NCBI GenBank assembly: GCA_009869945.1 | Contig: WIXG01000405.1 | Coordinates: forward strand, 1 to 62,849 | Source of the DNA: Mesaphorura yosii | Lineage: Eukaryota > Arthropoda > Collembola > Poduromorpha > Tullbergiidae | Reading direction: 5' to 3' | DNA: 62,849 nt | Part shown: one piece after another, positions 25,936-51,130 of the stretch | How the letters are laid out: each line of letters opens with the position of its first letter | Position numbering within the stretch: position 1 is the stretch's first letter | Position numbers and translations under genes: made by a program | Notes under the pieces: generated by a model | The model's database searches: none | What the model was told of the DNA's origin: nothing | Seen by the model: the letters and a program-made list of their open reading frames with translations, nothing else

Positions 25936-28900
25936 CTACAGCGAGACTTCGTTCACTCCGTCTGAGATCTCGTCCAGAATTTCCTGTTCGTGTTGTGCCC
26001 CAAAATAGTACGATGACGAGGTACGTCGCATGGACGGCGGGCCCATGGAACTGCCCGCTGACGCCGGGAGGGACGGTCCTGCGCTGGTCGCATTGATGGA
26101 ACGAGAGAGAATTGGCTCGATGGACTCTTTGATCTGATTATTGGCACCCTTCGGGTCGAGATCCGTCGCCCACGAGAAGTGCAGCAAAGCCTTGTGCGTC
26201 TCGCCCTTCCGCGAGTAAATCTTGGCCATAAGAAAGTAGACCAGCGACTCCTTTGGCACGATGAGCTTGAGTTCTTCGAGTTCGTCGAGCGCATCTTCGA
26301 GGCGGTTTACGGCAAAGAGCACTGAAGCTCGGTGGAATTTGCAGAGTGGGTTCTTTGGGTTTGCCTTCAGCGCCTTCGCGAAGGTGGCCAGTGACTTTTC
26401 GGTGCGAGATTCAGCGTGCTGGACGACGCCCAGGTGGCAAAGTAACACAGAATTGTTTGGATGAATGGCGAGGGCTTTGCGGTAATAAACTTCGGCTCGC
26501 GTGAACCGCTCCTGCTTGTAGAAAATCATGCCCATGCCGTACCACGCATTGTAGTGTCGAGGATCCAGTCGTGACGCGTTGCGGAAGGCCATCATTGCTT
26601 TCTCCAGTTCTTCAGTCGCGACGTACTCGTGTCCCAGCAGAGTGTAACTGTACGCGTAGCGAGGATCCGCCTGAATGGCGCGCTTAAAATACGTGATTGC
26701 AGTCTCGTGCTCTTTCTGGAGGCTAAAGCAGTTCCCAGCAGCTATCCACGTAGAAACTTGACTCTTGTCGGCCAGGAGCAGGTCATGGGCGAGGGCTGAC
26801 AACTCGATTTCTTTTTGAAGGTGCCATAAAGCAGTGCTGAGCCACTCCAACCCTTCGAAGCGGTAAGGCTCCTTTCTTCGCATCAGCTGGTAATATCTGC
26901 GTAAACCAAATTTCAAATTAGAATAAGCCCAAGCGACAGACCTGGTTGTCTATTAATTTCATGGGAATATTCAGAAAGTCTTACTTGATTGCCTCTTCGT
27001 AAGCACCCATTTCAAAGAAAGCTTTCGCTATCAGGGAGAGGAATGAACCAGACTCTTTTTGCTGTGACTCCGAAGCGAGCAGAGTTTGTGCAGCTTCATT
27101 ACACTCGAAACGGCTAAGTTGGAGGTACGCTTTTCCCATTTCTCGTAACAGCGCCATTAAACCCTCTGAAATAAAGAAAATTGAAAAAATGTAAGCAATA
27201 TTCTCAATGATGAGCACTGCAGACTGCAGATCGCAGTAACATCTTTGATTTTACCTGCTGCCGATTTCTGTAGTTGTACTCCTTTGACCTCCAGATCCTT
27301 CGGCGTTCCTTGCAGACTCAAGTACACCGACTTATCAGTCATTGGATGCGAATTCATAAAAATGAAGTCCGATCGCGCGGTCAGATCCGCATCAGCCTCG
27401 ATTATGCAAGACGGAATGTCAGCTTCACCACCCAGCACAGCGGCATTTTTCTTATTCTCTTGTGACGTGGTTTTGGGGGTTCGTAGACGATTTTTGCGGT
27501 TTGGGGATTTGCTGCCTGCATTCAAGCGAGAAATTGCTGGCGGGGTTTTGTTATTTTCCTGCAAAGAAGTAAGCAACTCAATCAGTATTGGACTTTACGA
27601 TTAAAGGGGAAAGGACATCGAAATATACGAAATCGTATAAACTCACCTTTACGGAAACATTTGAATTTGAGAACAGTCTGGAACTTCTGCGTACTACGTT
27701 GGTCGCGTTGAGCGGCGACTGTGCAGCAGGGGTCGATGGTGACAAGACAGCTTGCTGCTGCTGCTGCCACGAGGGTGGCACACGTAAACATTGCTGTTAT
27801 TTACATAATTCAATTGTGAACTCAACAAACAAGAGAGCGACAGTAAAGAAAATGTGTTCGGGTCAGGGCTACCCTTACTGGACGGAAAATTGTGCAAAGT
27901 GCAAGGAGGCTTTGGAAAGAGTGAGGAATTTTAGGATTTGTGTAGGGAAGGCAAAACGCAGAGGATGTGGAAGGTCATGGATTCAGTGATTGGAGGAATT
28001 GGTCAACGTTTCACATCTTATAATGAATGTTTATATTTCGTATCTCACCTTTTTCGTTCTCGGCTCTGACAGCTCATGTAAATTTGATGTGATGCCCATA
28101 AATGGAGAATGTAATGTGCTGTGAATGTTTAACGAATCGGGGGAACTGTCGATTGGGAGAAAACCGAACCTAAACTCGATAAATTCAAATCACATGTTAA
28201 AATCTATGGCCGCAATGGCAATGATAAATGTAGTTATTAATTGAACTTACGTCGACGCGGCTTGACTGTACCCCGTGTTTGTCGGCGTGCTCGTAAATAG
28301 GTTTCTGTACTTGGGTGGTCGATTCTTGTTTGACGGATGAAGAATGCCCATTTCTTCTCCAATCGGTGTGGAATTTATGATTGGGCTCATGTGACGAGCC
28401 GGAGAATTTGAGAACTTATCGATTGGAGCTTTGTGTGGCTCACCAGCGCCACCCGTTTGACCCGTCATTACAATATTTTGTGCTCCGTGACACATTGAAA
28501 AATTTGATAGATGTGAAAGCTGGAAAACTTCTTCCGGGTCAACATTTTCACCCAGTGAGCACAGTTTGCAGTATGACTCCCAAAGGAACGGATTAGCTTT
28601 CAGACTGGCCAGGTAGGCTTCCTTTGCGATCTCCTGCCGATCGGTTGCCGTACAAATTCGGCCCAGGATCTGATGCGCGAATGGAGTTGAGTCGCCATAC
28701 CTGGAAGCCATGGTTTGCGGGTTCAAAGATGCCGTTGCTGGTATGGCGAGGAGTCCTTCAGCCTCGTGGAATTTTTCCATTTCAGCGCAACATAGGGTCA
28801 TGAGGTATCTACACCGATTATTTGAAAACTCGTTATTCTTGAGCAGGTCGTAGCACTGGAGTTTGCGTCCACCACGGAAGTACGCGGTGGCCAACAAAAA

Positions 28901-29020
28901 TAAGCTGTCTTCAGTATGAACTTCGGAAAAAAGTCGCTCCGCGAGAAAAATGGCATCGTTGTAGGCGTAGTGGTTCAGACAATGCCAGATGGCGGCTTGG
29001 ATAGGTTCTTGGACAAACAT
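25936..29020 (-). CDS. CDC27: CDC27/APC3, anaphase-promoting complex TPR subunit
   Basis: This is a scaffold subunit of the APC/C ubiquitin ligase in the nucleus. Its TPR superhelix binds Cdh1/Cdc20 and Doc1 Ile-Arg tails and homodimerises through the N-terminal repeats. Exons in transcript order: 29020-28251, 28145-28049, 27793-27647, 27558-27255, 27165-26985, 26896-25936. Phases agree and give 819 residues, against about 824 in human. The N-terminus reads MFVQEPIQAAIWHCLNHYAY, then AIFLAERLFSEV and FGDS-like YGDSTPF segments. A disordered middle contains RRSSRLF near residues 324-330, the same words as in vertebrate CDC27. The C-terminal TPR block runs from about 430 to 790, with GLMALLREMGKAYL, AWYGMGMIFYKQE and LDPKGANNQIKE. 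The start ATG fits the family N-terminus. An upstream acceptor (CCAG, exon resuming at 29029) suggests a spliced 5' UTR. The 97-nt exon at 28049 is short but in phase. Confidence 0.96.
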
Positions 29021-29105
29021 TTTGTGGTGCTGGAAAAATAGTCAAGCCTTTATGAACATAAACCAACTACCCAACCGCCTCAAGATTGTAACTTTCGCAA
29101 CTAAC

Positions 29106-33017: not shown

Positions 33018-36000
33018 ATGCCCGGCACCAGGTCGCCTCCACGGGCGCACCATTCGCGAAGCACCACCACCGTCAGGCATCTGAGCAGCGGCGCGGCAAG
33101 TGAAGGCGCCGGTCCAGTTCATTCGACTCCTCTTCGTCGGCAGAGTACCAGGTTGGCCCACCAAGCAGACGGATCCCCATCAAAGTTAAATGTTTCTTCT
33201 ATTTTGGGTGAGTTAAGTAATGCTATTTATGCAAATGAGATTGATTTGATGAGTGTCCGTCCATACCTGTTATAAGACATTTTGGGTTTGTCGATTCCTA
33301 ATTTCAGGATCAACTTTCGACTCGACTAAACAACATGGTGCGGAATTGTTTAATAGAGTAGTCGCCAAGCAGGGAGCCAAAGTTAAGGCAAAACCGGCGG
33401 CAAGGAAAGATACGACTACTGAAGCCTTAGCTCTTAGCGACGATGGTAATTGCCCAATTAGTTTAATTGCCCCTGCCTGCCGTCCCACCGCCGAATTAAT
33501 TCAAATGACTTACTTTCGAATGCATTGATTAATTGGTTTTAGACTTGATGGATAATTCATATGTACTGACTCAGTCTCAACACAAACGCGTCATGGGAGA
33601 ACATGCCAATAAGTTGCCTCCGACCGGGGTGGGGCGACGAGCGCGTGAATCTACTGGAACATTGGATGGTAAAGTCAAGATAAAAACCACGAGCGCATCG
33701 AGTCGTCAACTACGTAATACCTGGCGAAATTACTAAATAATTTCGAAAATGCATTTTACAGACTCGTCTGAACCATTAACAAAGTCTCATTACAAGCGCG
33801 TTATGGCTACACACGCCAAAAAGCTGCCTTTGGGTCGACCAGCGCGTGAATCGACTGGAACATTGGATGGTAAGGTCAAGATAAAGCTACTAGCGTATCG
33901 TGTTCCGTGTTGTCAAATATCTGATATAATTACTAAATAAGTTTGAATGCATTTTACAGACTCGTCTGAACCATTAACAAAGTCTCATTACAAACGCGTC
34001 ATGGGACAACACGCCAAGAAGCTGCCTCCGACCGGGGTGGGTGCACGAGCCCGAGAATCGACTGGAACATTTGATGGTAAGGTCCAGATTTAAGCACTAC
34101 CGTATCGTGTCGTCAAAATCTACGTAATACCTGATAGAATTACGAAATACGCTAAAGTGCAAATACAATTCGCAGACTCGTCCGAACCATTAACAGAGTC
34201 TCAACACAAACGCGTTATGGCTACACACGCCAAAAAGCTGCCTTTGGGTCGACCAGCGCGTGAATCGACTGGAACATTGGATGGTAAGGTCAAGATAAAG
34301 CTACTAGCGCATCGTGTCTGATATAATTACCAAGTATAACAGCTTAAGTTCGAATACATTTTACAGTCTCGTCTGAAACATTGACAAAGTCTCAACATGA
34401 ACAAGTTATGGCAAACCATGCAGAAAAGGTGTCTCCTACAAGGCTTAGGCCAAGACGACAACCGACTGGAGGCTTGGAGGGTGAGATCGAAAAGGAGACG
34501 CGTCTTACTCCAGACAGTCCTGTACAGTCTTCATCCCAGAAGAGTGTCGGCAAGGTAGGTTACATTTCTGATCAATCAATTTTAGTATTTGCTTTGTTAC
34601 CTTCATTCAATAAATTGTTGTCATTGTAATGTTCTTCCAGACGATTAACCTCTTGCATGATGGATTTGACAAAGATGACCTGAATGCTGCTGAAAAAATT
34701 AGCCTCAGATCTAGATTCACATCAAGGGGCCAGGCACTTCGCACTTCTCGACCATCACATCAGGTGAACACGACTGGCTCAAGTTCAGAGTCGGAAGAAA
34801 CATCCTCGTTTGTCAAGCCAGCAAAGAAGAAAGACGGTAGAGTTGGCGGTTCGGCGACTGCTTCCGAAGCGTACTCCCGAGTCTTGTCTCAAGCAAGCAG
34901 GACAAATGCGACAGTGACGTCTGGAGCTTCTCAATCACAATCACAGCGGGATGTTGCGCAACCAAGCACTTCTGCCTCAGTTCGAGCTGTGGCGGACCTG
35001 AGTCAGCCTCAGGCGGTCGAACCACACACCGTGAAGGAATCCCAACCTCAGTCGCAGGGTTACAAGGTAATATATATCCGTCAGATAGAAATGATATAAT
35101 AGATATATTGGATATTTTCATGAAACATTAAGCGCAATGGGACTTCAAGTTTTTGTTACTAATTACGAAAATATCCAAAATATCATATATTTATTATTTT
35201 TTAAAAATTTATTTATGAAAATATCCAGATATTTCGCAACCCTGCTCAGCCGCGTGCCAGCCACGAGACGCCAGTGCCACCAGTGTCGGAGATGGAGCCC
35301 TCCGAAAGTGCATCCAACTCATCTAAGCCAAAGCCGAAGCGAAATGTTTCTCAGCGAAGGATCGAGTCGGACGATTCAGAAGTTCCTCCTCCACCACCTC
35401 CGCGTCATGAAGAAGCTTCAAAACGCATGGATACGGACATGGCAATGAATGCTGATGTCGATGCCGGGGTGGATATGGAAAATATGGAATTTGAAAATGA
35501 AGAAGCAGCTGTTTTCGATGACGATGACAGCGACGCGAAATCGACAGAGAGTGGGTCAACGGGTTCTGAGCCAGGGCGAGAAGTAATTAAGGAGACGTCA
35601 GAAGTAAGATTATCAGAGGGCGGGCGTACATCTCACCAAAGGGAAACTTCAGTGGCAAGACGAGGTCAAGCCCGCAGGGACACTGAACACTCACGATTGC
35701 GATCCGAGCGGTCCTTACGAGCTTCGACTGTCGCTGTCGCAGATCCCGACGAGCCGGAGAGTGGCCCAGGTTTTGATTCAGAGCCAGAAGAAATAAAGCA
35801 GACTTCAGAAAGATCATCAGTGGTCGCAAAACCTGGAAAACGTGCATCTCACCAAAGGGAAACTTCAGTGGCAAGACGAGGTCAACCCCGCAGGGACACT
35901 GAACATTCACATTCACGATTACGGTCCCTACGAGTTTCGGCTGCTACAGATCCGCGTGCCAGCCACGAGACGCCAGTGCCACCAGTGTCGGAGATGGAGC

Positions 36001-37590
36001 CCTCCGAAAGTGCATCCAACTCATCTAAGCCAAAGCCGAAGCGAAATATTTCTCAACGAAGGGTCGAGTCGGACGATTCAGAAGAAGTTCCTCCTCCACG
36101 CCATGAAGAAGCTTCGAAACGTGTGGATGCGGACATGGAAATAATGAATGCCGATGTTGATGCCGGGTTGGATGTGGAAAATATGGAAGATGAAGTTGCA
36201 GTGGAAGCAGCTGCTTCCGACGACGACATCTTCGGAGCGCTCGCAACGAGACCGACAGAGGATGGTTCTTCGGGTTCTGATTCAATCTCAGAAGAAACTA
36301 AGCAGACGTCAGGAAGAACATCATCGGTCGGCGGAAGACCAGGAAAACGTGTGTCTTACCAAGGGAAAACTTCAGTGGCAGGACGAGGTCAAGGCCGCAG
36401 GGAAACTGAGGACTCACGATTGCGGTCCGGGCTGTCGGTGCGAGCTTCGGCTGGCGCAGATCCCGACGAGCCCTCACGTGGTTCAAATTTTGATTATGAT
36501 ATGATTAAGAAAACTACAAGAGGAAGGGAATCAAACCGTAGCCAACTCGATAAACGCGCGTCTCACCAAAGGAAAGCTTCAGTGGCCGGGCGAGGTCAAC
36601 GTCGCAGGGAATCAGAGCCGTCAAGTTTGCGGTCACCACCTTCGGCGAAGGCTCATGCAGTGAATCAGGAGTTGGCTCATTCTCTGCCAAGAATTGTAAG
36701 CAGCCCTTACTTTATTAAATGCCAAAGAACGAGGGTTGCATAATATCTAGATATTTTCATGAAAATATCAAATATATTTTGAATATTTTCTTAATTCGTA
36801 ACAAGAACAACTTGAAGTCGCATTGCGCTTAATTTCGCAATGTTTCATGAAAATATCCAATATATCTATTTTATCCTTTGTATCTGACGGATATATATCA
36901 CCTTGCAACCTTGCAAAGAATCAATCAAAAAGTCACTGTTTATGCTACTGTTAACTTTAACTTTCTACTTTTGGTTCTCAGAAGAGGAGCCAAAGCGGAA
37001 GAGCAGCCCGGATGAGCGCAGCGGAATCCTTTGATTTACTGCGAGGAAGAGTAGAAACTGCCGGACCGTCATGGAGAGTAGCTCACCCAGAAGCTGTGAC
37101 CCTCGCTAAAAAAAAGGATATCCCGAAAAAGATGAAGGCTGAACACCCCGAATGGGCCATAGTTCAAAAGCGAGGGGCGCCTGTTGCTACTGCTGACAAT
37201 GCGAAATCGAAGAAGCAGCGTAAGCAAGTCGACTTCTTCAGCAACGCCAACATGATCTCCAAGGAGAAGATGGCAGGCTTCTTCATGGCCGCCGGCGAAG
37301 ACATGTCCAAAGTGGAGCTGGACAAGACGCACGCTGTCACCAACGTGATGATCCAGAAGTTTCTCGACAAACTCTGCGCGAGCACGCCGAACCCCAACGG
37401 CATATTCGCGTTTCGTGAGCTTGAGGAGGCGCTCCAAGCGCAGGAGTGGATGTCGTGCAAGAGCAACATTTTGTCTCTGGAATTTGCAGCCGCGTTCACT
37501 CCCGAGCAGCTGCACAAGATGAGCGGGATCCTGATTCCGAGACCAGGCCAAGACGACACCAACTTCGATGAATTCATCTACACTGATTAA
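33018..37590 (+). CDS. Orphan nuclear protein with tandem-exon repeats; possible CENP-T-like histone fold
   Basis: I do not recognise the whole protein. Exons: 33018-33207, 33308-33445, 33543-33668, 33762-33869, 33960-34076, 34176-34283, 34367-34554, 34641-35066, 35229-36695, 36982-37590; phases agree, 1158 residues. The N-terminus is basic and Ser/Pro-rich. Exons 3-7 (about 110-305) are tandem copies of SSEPLTKSQHKRVMATHAKK-type units. Exon 9 (468-956) is disordered, with alternating acidic and RG/SR-rich blocks, and contains a 234-residue duplication and four copies of a TSVARRGQ..RRDTEHS motif. The C-terminus (from about 1030) is the only folded-looking part: a short helix, a long helix around AVTNVMIQKFLDKL, then GIFAFRELEEALQ, and a helix ending ILIP. 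That order resembles a histone fold followed by a CENP-T-like tail; this is inference. A nuclear or chromatin role is likely from composition. Intron 8 appears transposon-derived. Confidence 0.8.
33543..34554 (+). repeat. Tandem array of five homologous phase-1 exons
   Basis: The exons at 33543, 33762, 33960, 34176 and 34367 encode related 36-42-residue units, the last one more diverged and longer. Starts are spaced 219, 198, 216 and 191 bases. The first and third copies have a PPTGVG..ARE form; the second and fourth have a shorter LGRPARE form, so the array reads A-B-A-B-C, with a dimer spacing of 417 and 414 bases. Introns between them are also similar (GTAAGGTCAAGATAAAGCTA, and a TGCATTTTACAG end), showing duplication of exon plus intron. 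Confidence 0.9.
35055..35244 (+). mobile_element. hAT-like MITE forming intron 8 (introner), copy A
   Basis: The element begins CAGGGTTAC and ends GCAACCCTG, a 9-bp terminal inverted repeat with one difference. It is flanked by CTCAGTCG (35047-35054) and CTCAGCCG (35245-35252), an 8-bp target duplication matching at 7 of 8 positions. The whole 162-nt intron 8 (35067-35228) lies inside: the donor is 12 bases from the left end and the acceptor (TATCCAG) 16 bases from the right end. The interior is AT-rich with GATATTTTCATGAAA-type palindromes. An 8-bp duplication and CAGGG ends fit hAT elements; at 190 bp it has no transposase. Confidence 0.8.
35251..36660 (+). repeat. Internal 702-bp direct duplication in exon 9
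   Basis: The segment starting CGCGTGCCAGCCACGAGACG at 35251 recurs at 35953, a period of 702 bases (234 codons). The copies share the SEMEPSESASNSSKPKPKRN stretch, the acidic ADVDAG segment and the TSVARRGQ..RRDTE motif. That last motif also repeats within each half, near 35632, 35850, 36355 and 36565. The duplication keeps the reading frame. Confidence 0.85.
36731..36913 (-). mobile_element. hAT-like MITE, copy B, inverted, inside intron 9
   Basis: This is the reverse-oriented relative of copy A: it opens GAGGGTTGC and closes GCAACCTTG, and its reverse complement contains ATATATATCCGTCAGATA and ATAGATATATTGGATATT, shared with copy A. It is flanked by CAAAGAAC (36723-36730) and CAAAGAAT (36914-36921), again 7 of 8 identical. 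It lies entirely within intron 9 (36696-36981) and does not supply that intron's splice sites. An 8-bp internal indel separates the copies. Confidence 0.8.
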
Positions 37591-47600: not shown

Positions 47601-48478
47601 ATTCTACTAAACAACGTTAATGCATGAGGCATACTCTCGCACCCGGAATTGAACTAGATCTTATTTCGATTCGATGAAGCTGGTGTATATAAGCTCATTA
47701 ATTCTGATCTCGATCATTTATAATAGATTTAAGGCGCGTGGGTGACGGAAGAGTAAAGTAAAGAGTGCAGGGCGAGTCAATTTATGTGTCACTTGCTGTA
47801 ATGCTCGAGTAAAATGCTCAAGGTCGACGATCGGCCAAGATTTAAGCCAAAGCCAAAGCCAAGTCCATGATTCAAGTACTCACGAGGCACGAACTCGAGC
47901 ACGAGCCGCCACGAGCTAACATCATGTCAATTAGTTACCAAGAGTGGGCTTACCTTCTTCATGATGCCAGTCTTTCGCTTGGAGAAGGTCGTGTACCTTC
48001 GAAGCTTGTTATCGATAAACTCCATCTTAATCTTGACGCGCCCCTTGGTCTTCTTCCCGTTGGGCGGTGGGGGTTTCTTTGGTTTGGTGGCTCCGGAGCC
48101 GCTTCCGCTCCCAGCGCCATGCGATCCACTGCTGCTGTTTACCACCGACTCGCCACCGCCGCCGTGCGTGTGATGGTTGCTGTTCCCATGAGGAGCCGCG
48201 TGGTGGTGGTGATGATGGCTGTTGTTATTATTCCCGTGATGTCCCCCGCCGCCGCCACCGCCGAGATGTCCGTACTCGTTGCCTCCTCCTCCGTTGACCG
48301 ACGTGAGTGTCGTGAACTCATGCCCGTGCTGACTAGGAAAGGGGTCATTTCCACTGCCACTGGACTGGAGCATGGCTACTGTGAATGAAGTGTTGGATTG
48401 GCTGCTGTCACCGTTCCCGTTCGATCTGCCACTGGACAATGATGTAGACGTGGATACAAAGTGGTGGTGATTTTGCAT
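38665..48478 (-). CDS. SRF: Serum response factor (MADS-box), distal-exon isoform
   Basis: This transcription factor binds CArG boxes, CC(A/T)6GG, as a dimer and recruits MRTF or Ets cofactors in the nucleus. Exons in transcript order: 48478-47954, 45455-45195, 39216-39069, 38993-38665; phases agree, 420 residues (fly about 449, human 508). The start ATG has an in-frame TAG six bases upstream. The N-terminus is Gly/Asn/His-rich with a six-His run. The MADS domain starts near residue 146 with GRVKIKMEFIDNKLRRYTTF and is interrupted by intron 1 after MKK, then resumes AYELSTLTGTQVMLLVASET and KLQPMITSEAGKALIQTCLN. The family GYEETELTY segment follows. The last two exons encode an acidic Ser-rich stretch, then LPANFAALLAASASG and a Ser/His/Pro-rich tail ending KREIQ. 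Joining exon 2 to these uses donor AAA|GTAAGA; reading through instead gives another C-terminus. SRF identity is certain; the distal exons are inferred from phase. Confidence 0.85.
40241..41292 (+). CDS. Candidate small gene nested in the SRF intron
   Basis: Opposite to SRF, five short segments have matching splice sites and phases. Candidate exons: 40241-40311 (phase 2 out), 40356-40428 (phase 0 out), 40501-40604 (phase 2 out), 40869-40990 and 41199-41292. Omitting the third gives a 119-residue basic protein that includes TSGQFAGRRHDANLQFPLMK and ends LLEELGRI. Including it shifts the frame, giving a 93-residue protein containing TWVKYLTVEIKLCSCVEE that stops at 40902. Acceptor TTATTTTACAG directly before the first ATG hints at upstream exons. 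AATAAA at 41650 could end the transcript. I recognise no family; all three frame-compatible joins could be chance, and a noncoding RNA is possible. Confidence 0.4.
41656..44846. other. Large SRF intron, remaining part
   Basis: This is AT-rich DNA within the intron that joins SRF exon 2 to the distal exons. Open frames on both strands (for example 44069-44482) match nothing known and lack paired splice sites. A TCGAGTCGAG-type repeat lies near 42925. Confidence 0.5.
44847..45194 (-). CDS. SRF: Alternative SRF C-terminus (read-through of exon 2)
   Basis: If the GTAAGA donor at 45194-45189 is not used, the SRF frame continues for 115 residues to a stop at 44847, giving a 377-residue protein with exons 48478-47954 and 45455-44847. 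The extra part is Gly/Pro/Ser-rich (SPYSNLSGPPPGSM, PGSMMFPHSPSPN, YHYPSDPQPPQ). It vaguely recalls the MMYPSPH region of vertebrate SRF, so it may be the ancestral tail or an isoform. I see no AATAAA on this strand in the following 800 bases, which weakens it as a transcript end. Confidence 0.55.
   Translation of the reverse strand, partial: VRLSGSPYSNLSGPPPGSMGGLGGGGAGGGGGQLGPPLHHPHSPSLYGSPLNNNYHPGSVISGGGPGSMMFPHSPSPNSQILYHYPSDPQPPQCYPQSGLHSPSSPHTHLTHLAR
45456..47953 (-). other. SRF intron 1 (2.5 kb)
   Basis: The intron interrupts the MADS domain between MKK and AYEL, with a GTAAGC donor and a TTGATTGCAG acceptor. Apart from the inverted CArG-like pair at 45723-45750, I see no gene or element in it. 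Confidence 0.8.
45723..45750. promoter_or_regulatory. Inverted pair of CArG-like boxes in SRF intron 1
   Basis: CTATATTAGGA and TCCTAATATAG form a perfect 11-bp inverted repeat around a 6-base loop. Each arm contains CTATATTAGG, one base away from the CC(A/T)6GG consensus that SRF binds. Autoregulation of SRF through CArG boxes is known in vertebrates, so this is a candidate autoregulatory site, though it lies in an intron. Confidence 0.35.
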
Positions 48479-51130
48479 TTCCTACGAGCCACAGCCTCTC
48501 ATTTCGTCACTGGTTAGGCACTGATGCACGTGTATTAATTAATTTCACAGGCACTGGACAAGATGGTCTGACTTTAATTACGAAATCGTTAATCGTGGTC
48601 AAAGTAGGAAAACTTCAAATGAGCCTGCTGCCTAAAGAGCACCTTCGTCCGTTCGCCGTAACAGCTGAGTTCGTACTGTAGAGATTCGTACGTACTCGCC
48701 GTATTTGGAGATTACCACCCCACAGCAGCAAGAAAAAATTCCGCACCTCGCACCTCAGCTCGTGGAGCTCTCTCACTTGTGTACCTCGCACGCGTTATCA
48801 ACAAAGCCAATAAGCCAACTGGCACTCGCAGTGATTCATGCAACCTGCAACCTGCACCCAAACCCCAAGAATTCGTCCCCGCGTGAGTGTTTAGAATTTC
48901 GCCAATACAATTTCGAGTTCAACCCCGAATTCTGTCCAGAAATCAGTTTCTGACTGCTGCTTGCACGAACTTCGGGCACCGGACGTAAAATTTATGCCAC
49001 ACGAGTCGAGGAAGATGAGACCGAGTCGCTTGGCTCGGTCGAGTATCGAATTTATGGAAGTTTGCCTAATTTCTTCGCACGCTGCTGCTTATTTTGGGTA
49101 TTCATGCCAAAACGAGCAAATACGAGCCCGCTTTCCAAATTTAGAACAATCTGCCGCATGCATGCCATGCCGTTGTGGATGCTTAACGAGATGGTGTGAT
49201 ATTTTCATACCGCGCGTGGATGCGGATTCGCTTCCTTATTACTACCCTGACTCTGGCCTGCTCCAGAATCAGAATCGAGAAGCAGCCCAGCTTGCAAAAA
49301 TGCCGGCGTGTAATGAGCAGCCCGAATAAAATTAGAACCCGGTCTCCCGTATTCAAAACACATCCGAAATTCGAATCTCTGCTCCCCAATCTGCAAATTC
49401 ACTGCCAAAACGAACAGGCGATGACGCAAGTCGAATATTTTGAAAACATTGTTTAAAAATTCACTCGCACAACCAAAGTAAAGTCAAAACGCAAAGCAGG
49501 CAAAGCTTTTACGCTGCGTTCAAATTTTGATCAAGCACCTCCTCCTTCGATTCATCTTTCTGTAGTTGTGTGTGTACGTGTACTTCACGGCAGGCAAGAA
49601 GATCTTGTTCGCTGTTGCTGCTGCTTCTCATCGCACCATCGATCTCGCGCATCGCCCAAAATAGGAAATCATCTCCTTTTATGGCGCGTCAGGAAATTCG
49701 AGCCCATGTGCTCTGAATTCTTCGGCCCTGCCACTTCCGGACTCGATTCTGGCGGCGATGCGGGCTGGAATGCCCAGTTTGTGGTGTGAATGACAGCTGG
49801 GAGGGACGGTGGAGCCCGATCGGGCGCGTGGAGGCGCTCTTGTTGGGAACTTGTGTCCCAGGTCCATTTCCTTTTATGTAAATCGCCATACTCGTGCTTT
49901 TTGCAGTCCAATTTGCATACGCAAAGAGATTTAAAGGGATTTTCGTCCAGTAGAGCGCACCGCACCACGTGAAATGCCTTCAAGGGGCAATCGAGCCTCG
50001 TGCCGTCTCCCTTCTCAGGTGGCCCTTTACTAGCCTATGCAGCTCGATGCTCGTTCTGATCTTGCGTCAGTCTGTGAATTGGTGCCTGATTGCGTTATTT
50101 CGTATTGGGATTTGTGTTTGCTTCTTTGCTTGACTGACCATTCATCATCTCAGGTTTCGAAACTCGGAGCAGTGCTGTGCTGGCTTAATGGATTTTTGAG
50201 TTTAGTCAACCCGCCGCGGTGCGCCATGCCACCGAACTGTTTGTTATTTTTAGACGACGGATATGACAATGAATACGAAATTAATCATTTGTCGGATCAT
50301 GCGTGCAGAATTCAAAACTCAATTTAGACATTCTTGGGAAAATGGTCATAATGAATGCGTAATTTATGGTTGTGAGTTAGTGAATTCCGAGTCCTCGGTT
50401 CACATTTTCCGTGCCGTACTCGCTTAGCTGCGCTGCGTCTCATTTCTCATTGCCGAGTGCTCATTCAATTATCAATGAACTTTTCTGTTTTCCGTATTTG
50501 GCATGTTTTTGTAACGTGCAGAGGCAAAGACAGGCAAAGCCACAATAATGCCAAACCTTTGCCCGTCGTTCGGTCCATTCGGATTCGACTCGGACATGCC
50601 AAAGCGGAAATCCCTTCGGCTTCACCGCCTTTTATGATGTACGAATGCACGCTCTCAAGCAGATGCAGCAGATGCTCTTTGTTGGTTTTCGCTATTATTC
50701 GCTTTCGGGTTTTGTCGGCCTAATTCTCGTAAGCACTCGTAAACTGGTCATGTCATCGAAATGGAAATGACGAATGAGATGCTCATTGCTTACTGTTTGA
50801 ACTGAGGGAAAGTCCTCGTCAATTACCTCAGGCCAGGTAGAATCACAATTAGTCAATTGGTATTTGTGGCCAATTCACTGATATACTGATAAAAACCTAC
50901 TAGCAATAAGTCCTCAAATTTTGTGTCTGCGTCTTGTCTCATTTTCCCGTGTCCCATGTTGTGCTGTGTCGTCTTCATCCGTCGCCTTCTGACTACTGAA
51001 AGAGAATTTTTTCGCTCGAAGTTGTTCCTGGACGTCAATTGTAAGTAATTTACTAACTAATTAAATAACAATTAATTACTAAAGACTAACACTGAGTTCT
51101 ATCTCGTTTCGGAGTATCCTGAGAGTAAGG
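48479..51130. other. Divergent intergenic region, SRF and Cys-protein gene
   Basis: The 2.65 kb between the leftward SRF start and the rightward start at 51131 should hold both promoters and any untranslated SRF leader exons. No full-consensus CArG box, TATA box or coding exon was noticed. Confidence 0.45.

Follow-up and report, generated by a model that had tools for sequence, protein, structure and literature searches.

A putative intron made by a hAT-like MITE, with the reading frame kept, in an orphan gene of Mesaphorura yosii

The origin of new introns is an old question, and one locus of the collembolan Mesaphorura yosii raises it in concrete form: can a small cut-and-paste element that lands in a coding sequence be spliced out again as an intron, leaving the reading frame intact? 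The stretch of DNA that was analysed (the window; 62,849 nucleotides) holds an orphan gene in which such an element, here called copy 1, coincides with intron 8. The best explanation, and in our view a probable one, is that insertion of a hAT MITE produced a single new intron in this animal orphan gene. If the splice is real, the locus captures a cut-and-paste element at the point of turning into an intron, and its sister copies have donors of unequal strength.

The gene lies on the forward strand (CDS 33018..37590) and was modelled, from its intron borders and joined stop-free frame, as 10 exons with GT-AG introns and 1158 codons (1158 aa); copy 1 makes up its predicted intron 8, in phase 0. 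No Pfam family was found in three ORF pieces of the gene at E 0.01 and no solved structure similar to its last exon at E 1, and comparison of the whole protein with the 7987 candidates scored in protein collections gave neither a homologue nor an empty site. Against its own genome the protein gave 12 matches, 10 of them to its own exons and the other two weak (E 0.0066 and 0.075); this search gave no paralogue, no second haplotype contig and no empty site. Exons 3-6 and their introns are near-copies in tandem (33543-34366; two direct-repeat pairs, 94% and 86%), which indicates that the gene grew by exon duplication too.

The first-pass annotation had described a 190-bp hAT-like MITE with defined ends and an 8-bp target duplication, and the sequence bears this description out. 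Copy 1, delimited by its inverted ends, its duplication and its sister copies, occupies 35055..35244 on the forward strand, in sense to the gene, with CAGGGTTAC at its left end and GCAACCCTG at its right. Comparison of the flanks shows the left duplication, CTCAGTCG (35047..35054, + strand), to match the right one, CTCAGCCG (35245..35252, + strand), at 7 of 8 bases; the chance of at most one mismatch in one given 8-bp flank pair is 3.8e-4. CAGGG ends are typical of hAT elements, and terminal inverted repeats of this kind (CAGGG...CCCTG) are present in copy 1, the RNA of which folds somewhat better than shuffled versions, as expected from inverted ends (z -2.84; 1 of 200 shuffles equally good). 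Over its last 32 bases, copy 1 has one difference from an element end at C1028:11654, and a hAT dimerisation domain lies some 550 bp from that end. This domain has 39 matches in the genome, and the transposase piece on C1028 has 17, itself included. None of the four left ends of the subfamily found genome-wide showed a transposase, nor did the genome yield one element with both ends and a transposase. The hAT membership of copy 1 therefore rests on the length of the duplications, seen at both copies in the window, on the inverted ends, and on the right end shared near a hAT transposase piece, and by these marks copy 1 likely belongs to the hAT-type MITEs. In keeping with a MITE, there are several copies (four left ends in 93 Mb), and those of 190 and 183 bp are too short for a transposase.

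The four left ends come from a scan of 93 Mb in 1127 contigs with a pattern allowing at most 3 mismatches, for which the reversed control gave none. They are copy 1, a second copy in the window, and two copies at contig edges: contig C933 ends in one and contig C818 starts in the other. Copy 2 (36731..36913, - strand, 183 bp) lies 1.5 kb from copy 1, reversed, in the next intron (intron 9; 36696..36981, + strand, 286 bp, from the intron borders). Its flanks, CAAAGAAC (36723..36730, + strand) and CAAAGAAT (36914..36921, + strand), agree at 7 of 8 bases, and its ends have one altered base each (CAAGG.../...CCCTC in its own sense). It is therefore a further copy with an 8-bp duplication, on the existence of which the first-pass reading had been staked. 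By subtraction, intron 9 without copy 2 and its duplication would measure 95 bp, a length near that of introns 1-7 (83-100 bp). The C933 and C818 copies are cut by the contig ends, and the 8-bp duplication was assessed at the two window copies; the two cut copies are identical across 100 shared bases, and copies 1 and 2 group together against them. An internal pattern of the element was found in three of the four copies (the C818 copy ends within it) and, with 3 mismatches, on C349; we discount the latter as a further copy because the reversed control of this pattern gave three matches. A DNA search of the genome added a partial right end on each of C1028 and C371. Contigs C933 (at its end), C818 (at its start) and C371 (at its end) break off within a copy or an end belonging to this group of elements, which suggests that further copies are absent from the assembly.

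What would happen to the message if copy 1 were left in place or removed? Unspliced, the element brings five in-frame stops into the frame of the orphan gene. With splicing at 35066|35229 they disappear, and exons 8-9 read through as a single open frame of 631 codons. The intron so defined, that of the first-pass annotation, spans 35067..35228 (+ strand, 162 bp; AAG|GTAATA ... ATCCAG|ATA), and our recount agrees with the arithmetic given for it: 12 retained bases on the left, 16 on the right and 8 duplicated make 36, adding 12 codons with no frameshift. These 36 bases are stop-free in all three phases. If instead the acceptor were the CTCAG that ends at 35249, within the right duplication, the intron would be 183 bp long (35067..35249, + strand), and 15 bases, or 5 codons, would be added with the frame likewise kept.

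Splice sites were scored with one set of general matrices and one set built from the eight other introns of the gene, several of which are mutual near-copies. By the general matrices there are 164 in-frame, stop-free donor/acceptor pairs, among which 35067/35249 ranks third (9.3), ahead of 35067/35354 (8.9), and 35067/35228 ninth (5.8). The donor at 35067 scores 6.24 by the general matrix, against 7.54 for one at 34764, outside the element; by the gene's own matrix it scores 5.74, the top value of 34980-35330. There is thus a clear candidate donor inside copy 1, though a donor 300 bp upstream scores higher by one of the two matrices. The acceptor is ambiguous, and could be either the element's CAG at 35228 or the duplication's CTCAG at 35249. 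The former is weak by the general matrix (-0.44) and scores 1.36 by the gene's own, by which five AGs in the region outscore it, all of them upstream of the last in-frame stop; the latter falls outside the ten best by the gene's own matrix. The proposal that the element supplies both splice sites consequently holds for the donor, and its acceptor may come from the target duplication. The frame is retained with both acceptors, and 35228 and 35249 are both candidates, their pairs with 35067 ranking ninth and third by the general matrices. The pairing exceeds what chance would give: among 3000 elements with shuffled interiors, 129 had any in-frame pair at a donor score of at least 4, and 26 reached the observed best pair, which is 35067/35249 and not 35067/35228 (general matrices).

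It is possible that copy 1 lies within a larger intron, one or both of whose splice sites are in the flanks, and that it merely enlarges or shifts this intron. The two top pairs by the general matrices, 34764/35249 (10.6) and 34764/35354 (10.2), are of this type. However, the flanks joined without the element run on without a stop across 297 codons, and the left flank, taken on its open frame alone, would be coding; codon usage was uninformative on the coding status of the flanks, including 34764-35054. Use of the acceptor at 35354 would moreover remove repeated coding sequence, since the sequence that starts at 35250 recurs within exon 9, in frame and nearly identical. We regard this larger intron as quite unlikely.

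Exon 9 consists of two tandem units that were defined by their alignment, the first (35250..35951, + strand) starting inside the right duplication of copy 1 and the second (35952..36695, + strand) following directly. Of the 16 gaps between them, 13 are multiples of 3, two (4/4) compensate each other, and the remaining one, a gap of 7, is terminal. Across 219 codon pairs dS is 0.379 against a dN of 0.233 (Fisher p 0.012, from rounded counts). This modest excess of synonymous over non-synonymous change, together with the frame-keeping gaps, supports the translation of exon 9, downstream of the element.

The five stops would also be expected if the MITE disrupted the gene, being hardly spliced or not at all, so that translation ends within it. 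In that case the only reason for the intact downstream frame would be that the insertion is young or polymorphic. How long that frame, which is open over 683 codons, could survive without selection was simulated (1000 runs; indels at an assumed rate of 10% of substitutions). At 1% divergence a neutral frame stayed open in 0.449 of runs with substitutions only and in 0.118 with indels, values that a recent disruption could accommodate; at 3% it did so in just 0.099 and 0.001. Copy 1 is probably not brand new, since 4 substitutions among 92 left-half bases and one 8-bp deletion are private to it (by-eye count from the alignment), and this argues against a disruption too young to have left traces, although these changes may be older than the insertion itself. 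As they may predate it, the open 683-codon frame speaks, though not overwhelmingly, for the element being taken out of the message. We consider disruption unlikely.

Taking frame, splice-site scores and open downstream frame together, an intron made by the MITE with the frame kept appears to be the best-supported reading. In this scenario, a non-autonomous hAT MITE inserted in sense into the coding sequence of the orphan gene and duplicated 8 bp, as its sequence and flanks show; hAT elements at other places in the genome would have provided the transposase that moved it. The donor 12 bases from its left end would be used together with an acceptor that is either its own CAG, 16 bases from the right end, or the CTCAG in the right-hand duplication. 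The spliceosome would then remove most of copy 1 as a phase-0 intron and leave 36 (or 15) in-frame bases in the message.

The right border of the element coincides with a further feature of exon 9. The first 96 bases of the two units (35250-35345 and 35952-36047) are identical, and later identity is 69-91% per 100 bases. Homology between the units begins at 35250, that is, within the right duplication of copy 1. The base at which the two duplications of copy 1 differ is T at 35052 and C at 35250, and the second unit also has C (35952). A gene-conversion tract ending at the element would account for both the 96-base identity and the mismatch in the duplication.

Elements acting as introns have precedents. 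Three titles cited in PMC3260210 (Dennis 1988, Wessler 1991, Giroux 1994) concern maize Ds/Ds1 elements in this role. Copy 1 resembles them in belonging to the hAT superfamily, in its insertion into a gene and in its presumed removal from the message, and it presents the Ds-like configuration of a transposon with its duplication within coding sequence and a frame restored by predicted splicing. In maize the splicing was, by title, shown on RNA, whereas here it is deduced from genomic sequence; the present host is an animal and the element a 190-bp MITE. The introners of Aureococcus, as described in PMC9860276, bring both splice sites with them and lengthen the message by 4 + 8 (duplication) bases. 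Copy 1 would similarly add in-frame bases, 28 + 8 (or 12 + 3), and would have both splice sites, though its acceptor may be that of the duplication. In Aureococcus the introns of this origin are many, and one isolate lacks the insertion; here there is one putative intron, and the searches gave no empty site. A review, in the portion that lists introns from transposon insertions, gives 35 events in Oryza, Drosophila, Oikopleura and Zea (PMC3443670); animal cases therefore exist, Drosophila and Oikopleura being among those listed. Like these events, copy 1 is a transposon with splice sites near its boundaries, and unlike them, as far as the review's listing alone allows comparison, it involves another host lineage and another element family. 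Intron gain by a small cut-and-paste element is thus a known, seldom documented route, of which copy 1 is probably a further case.

A family of introners is a more demanding proposition, defined in passages of PMC9860276 by at least four similar introns with similarity reaching both splice borders; the same passages give such families in animals for only two taxonomic groups. The first-pass annotation had spoken of introner activity, and in this sense of an intron-making family the term does not apply to our findings, as one of the four copies found makes a putative intron and the assembly breaks inside two. It is conceivable that a true family exists, with a MITE lineage making introns in many genes and most copies lost from the assembly. 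Two of the four left ends (C933 and C818) do run off their contigs, GT is present in all four, no phase of the retained bases contains a stop, and the C818 copy, in sense, continues a 118-codon stop-free frame. Yet four copies have given one putative intron, copy 2 being antisense inside an intron; the C933 copy lies 150 bp past the last listed frame; and the C818 copy is flanked by a degenerate-looking repeat with one relative. The donor form is AAG|GT in copies 1 and 2 and AAA|GT in the C818 and C933 copies, where AAA|GTGATA is the weaker site (2.78 against 6.24), and among the four right ends compared that on C371 has no AG. We therefore hold such a family to be highly improbable.

The C818 copy was rejected as a second intron-making insertion and proves nothing, because its flank is a degenerate-looking repeat and the contig ends inside the element. 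The 87-aa frame at C818 had no match in Pfam. The single relative of the flank repeat is at C835, where the frame, read by eye, is one that we take to be cytochrome-P450-like.

An introner in the making, which we think very doubtful, would combine several of these observations. It would be a lineage of hAT MITEs in an animal, with a latent splice site close to each end and with retained ends that are codon-neutral (28 + 8 duplicated = 36, without a stop in any of the three phases). Two sister copies share a gene; one would give the intron, and its right border would afterwards have become the limit of a gene-conversion tract between exon repeats.

Beyond the subfamily, a 17-base end pattern (2 mismatches) matched the genome 50 times, against 7 for the reversed control. 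Among the matches listed (30 of the 50 loci), one is copy 1, and 7 of the other 29, some of which are cut by contig ends, have a matching 8-bp pair, exact in 5; about 0.14 such loci among 29 would be expected by chance. Six related elements (L016, L020, L023, L027, L030 and L034), 204-548 bp long, have ends CAGGGTT...CCAACCCTG and 8-bp duplications, which are exact in four. Two candidates were set aside. C7:433279 and C7:436474, considered as opposite termini of a single hAT element, were rejected because their flanks differ, and a 163-codon stop-free frame across the empty site of L034 (contig C146) was dropped by eye, a more gene-like frame stopping just before the element.

The telomere repeat reported for Hypsibius (PMC5531438) had no exact match, and a lipocalin-family frame matched, among the matches listed (60 of 237), ordinary fatty-acid-binding proteins of animals. 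Searches of the window for Rfam matches at gathering score and for tRNAs found none. The neighbours of the orphan gene there include, on the reverse strand, a gene for a TPR protein with matches to anaphase-promoting-complex subunit 3 (25939-29041) and one for an SRF-type transcription factor (47930-48481).
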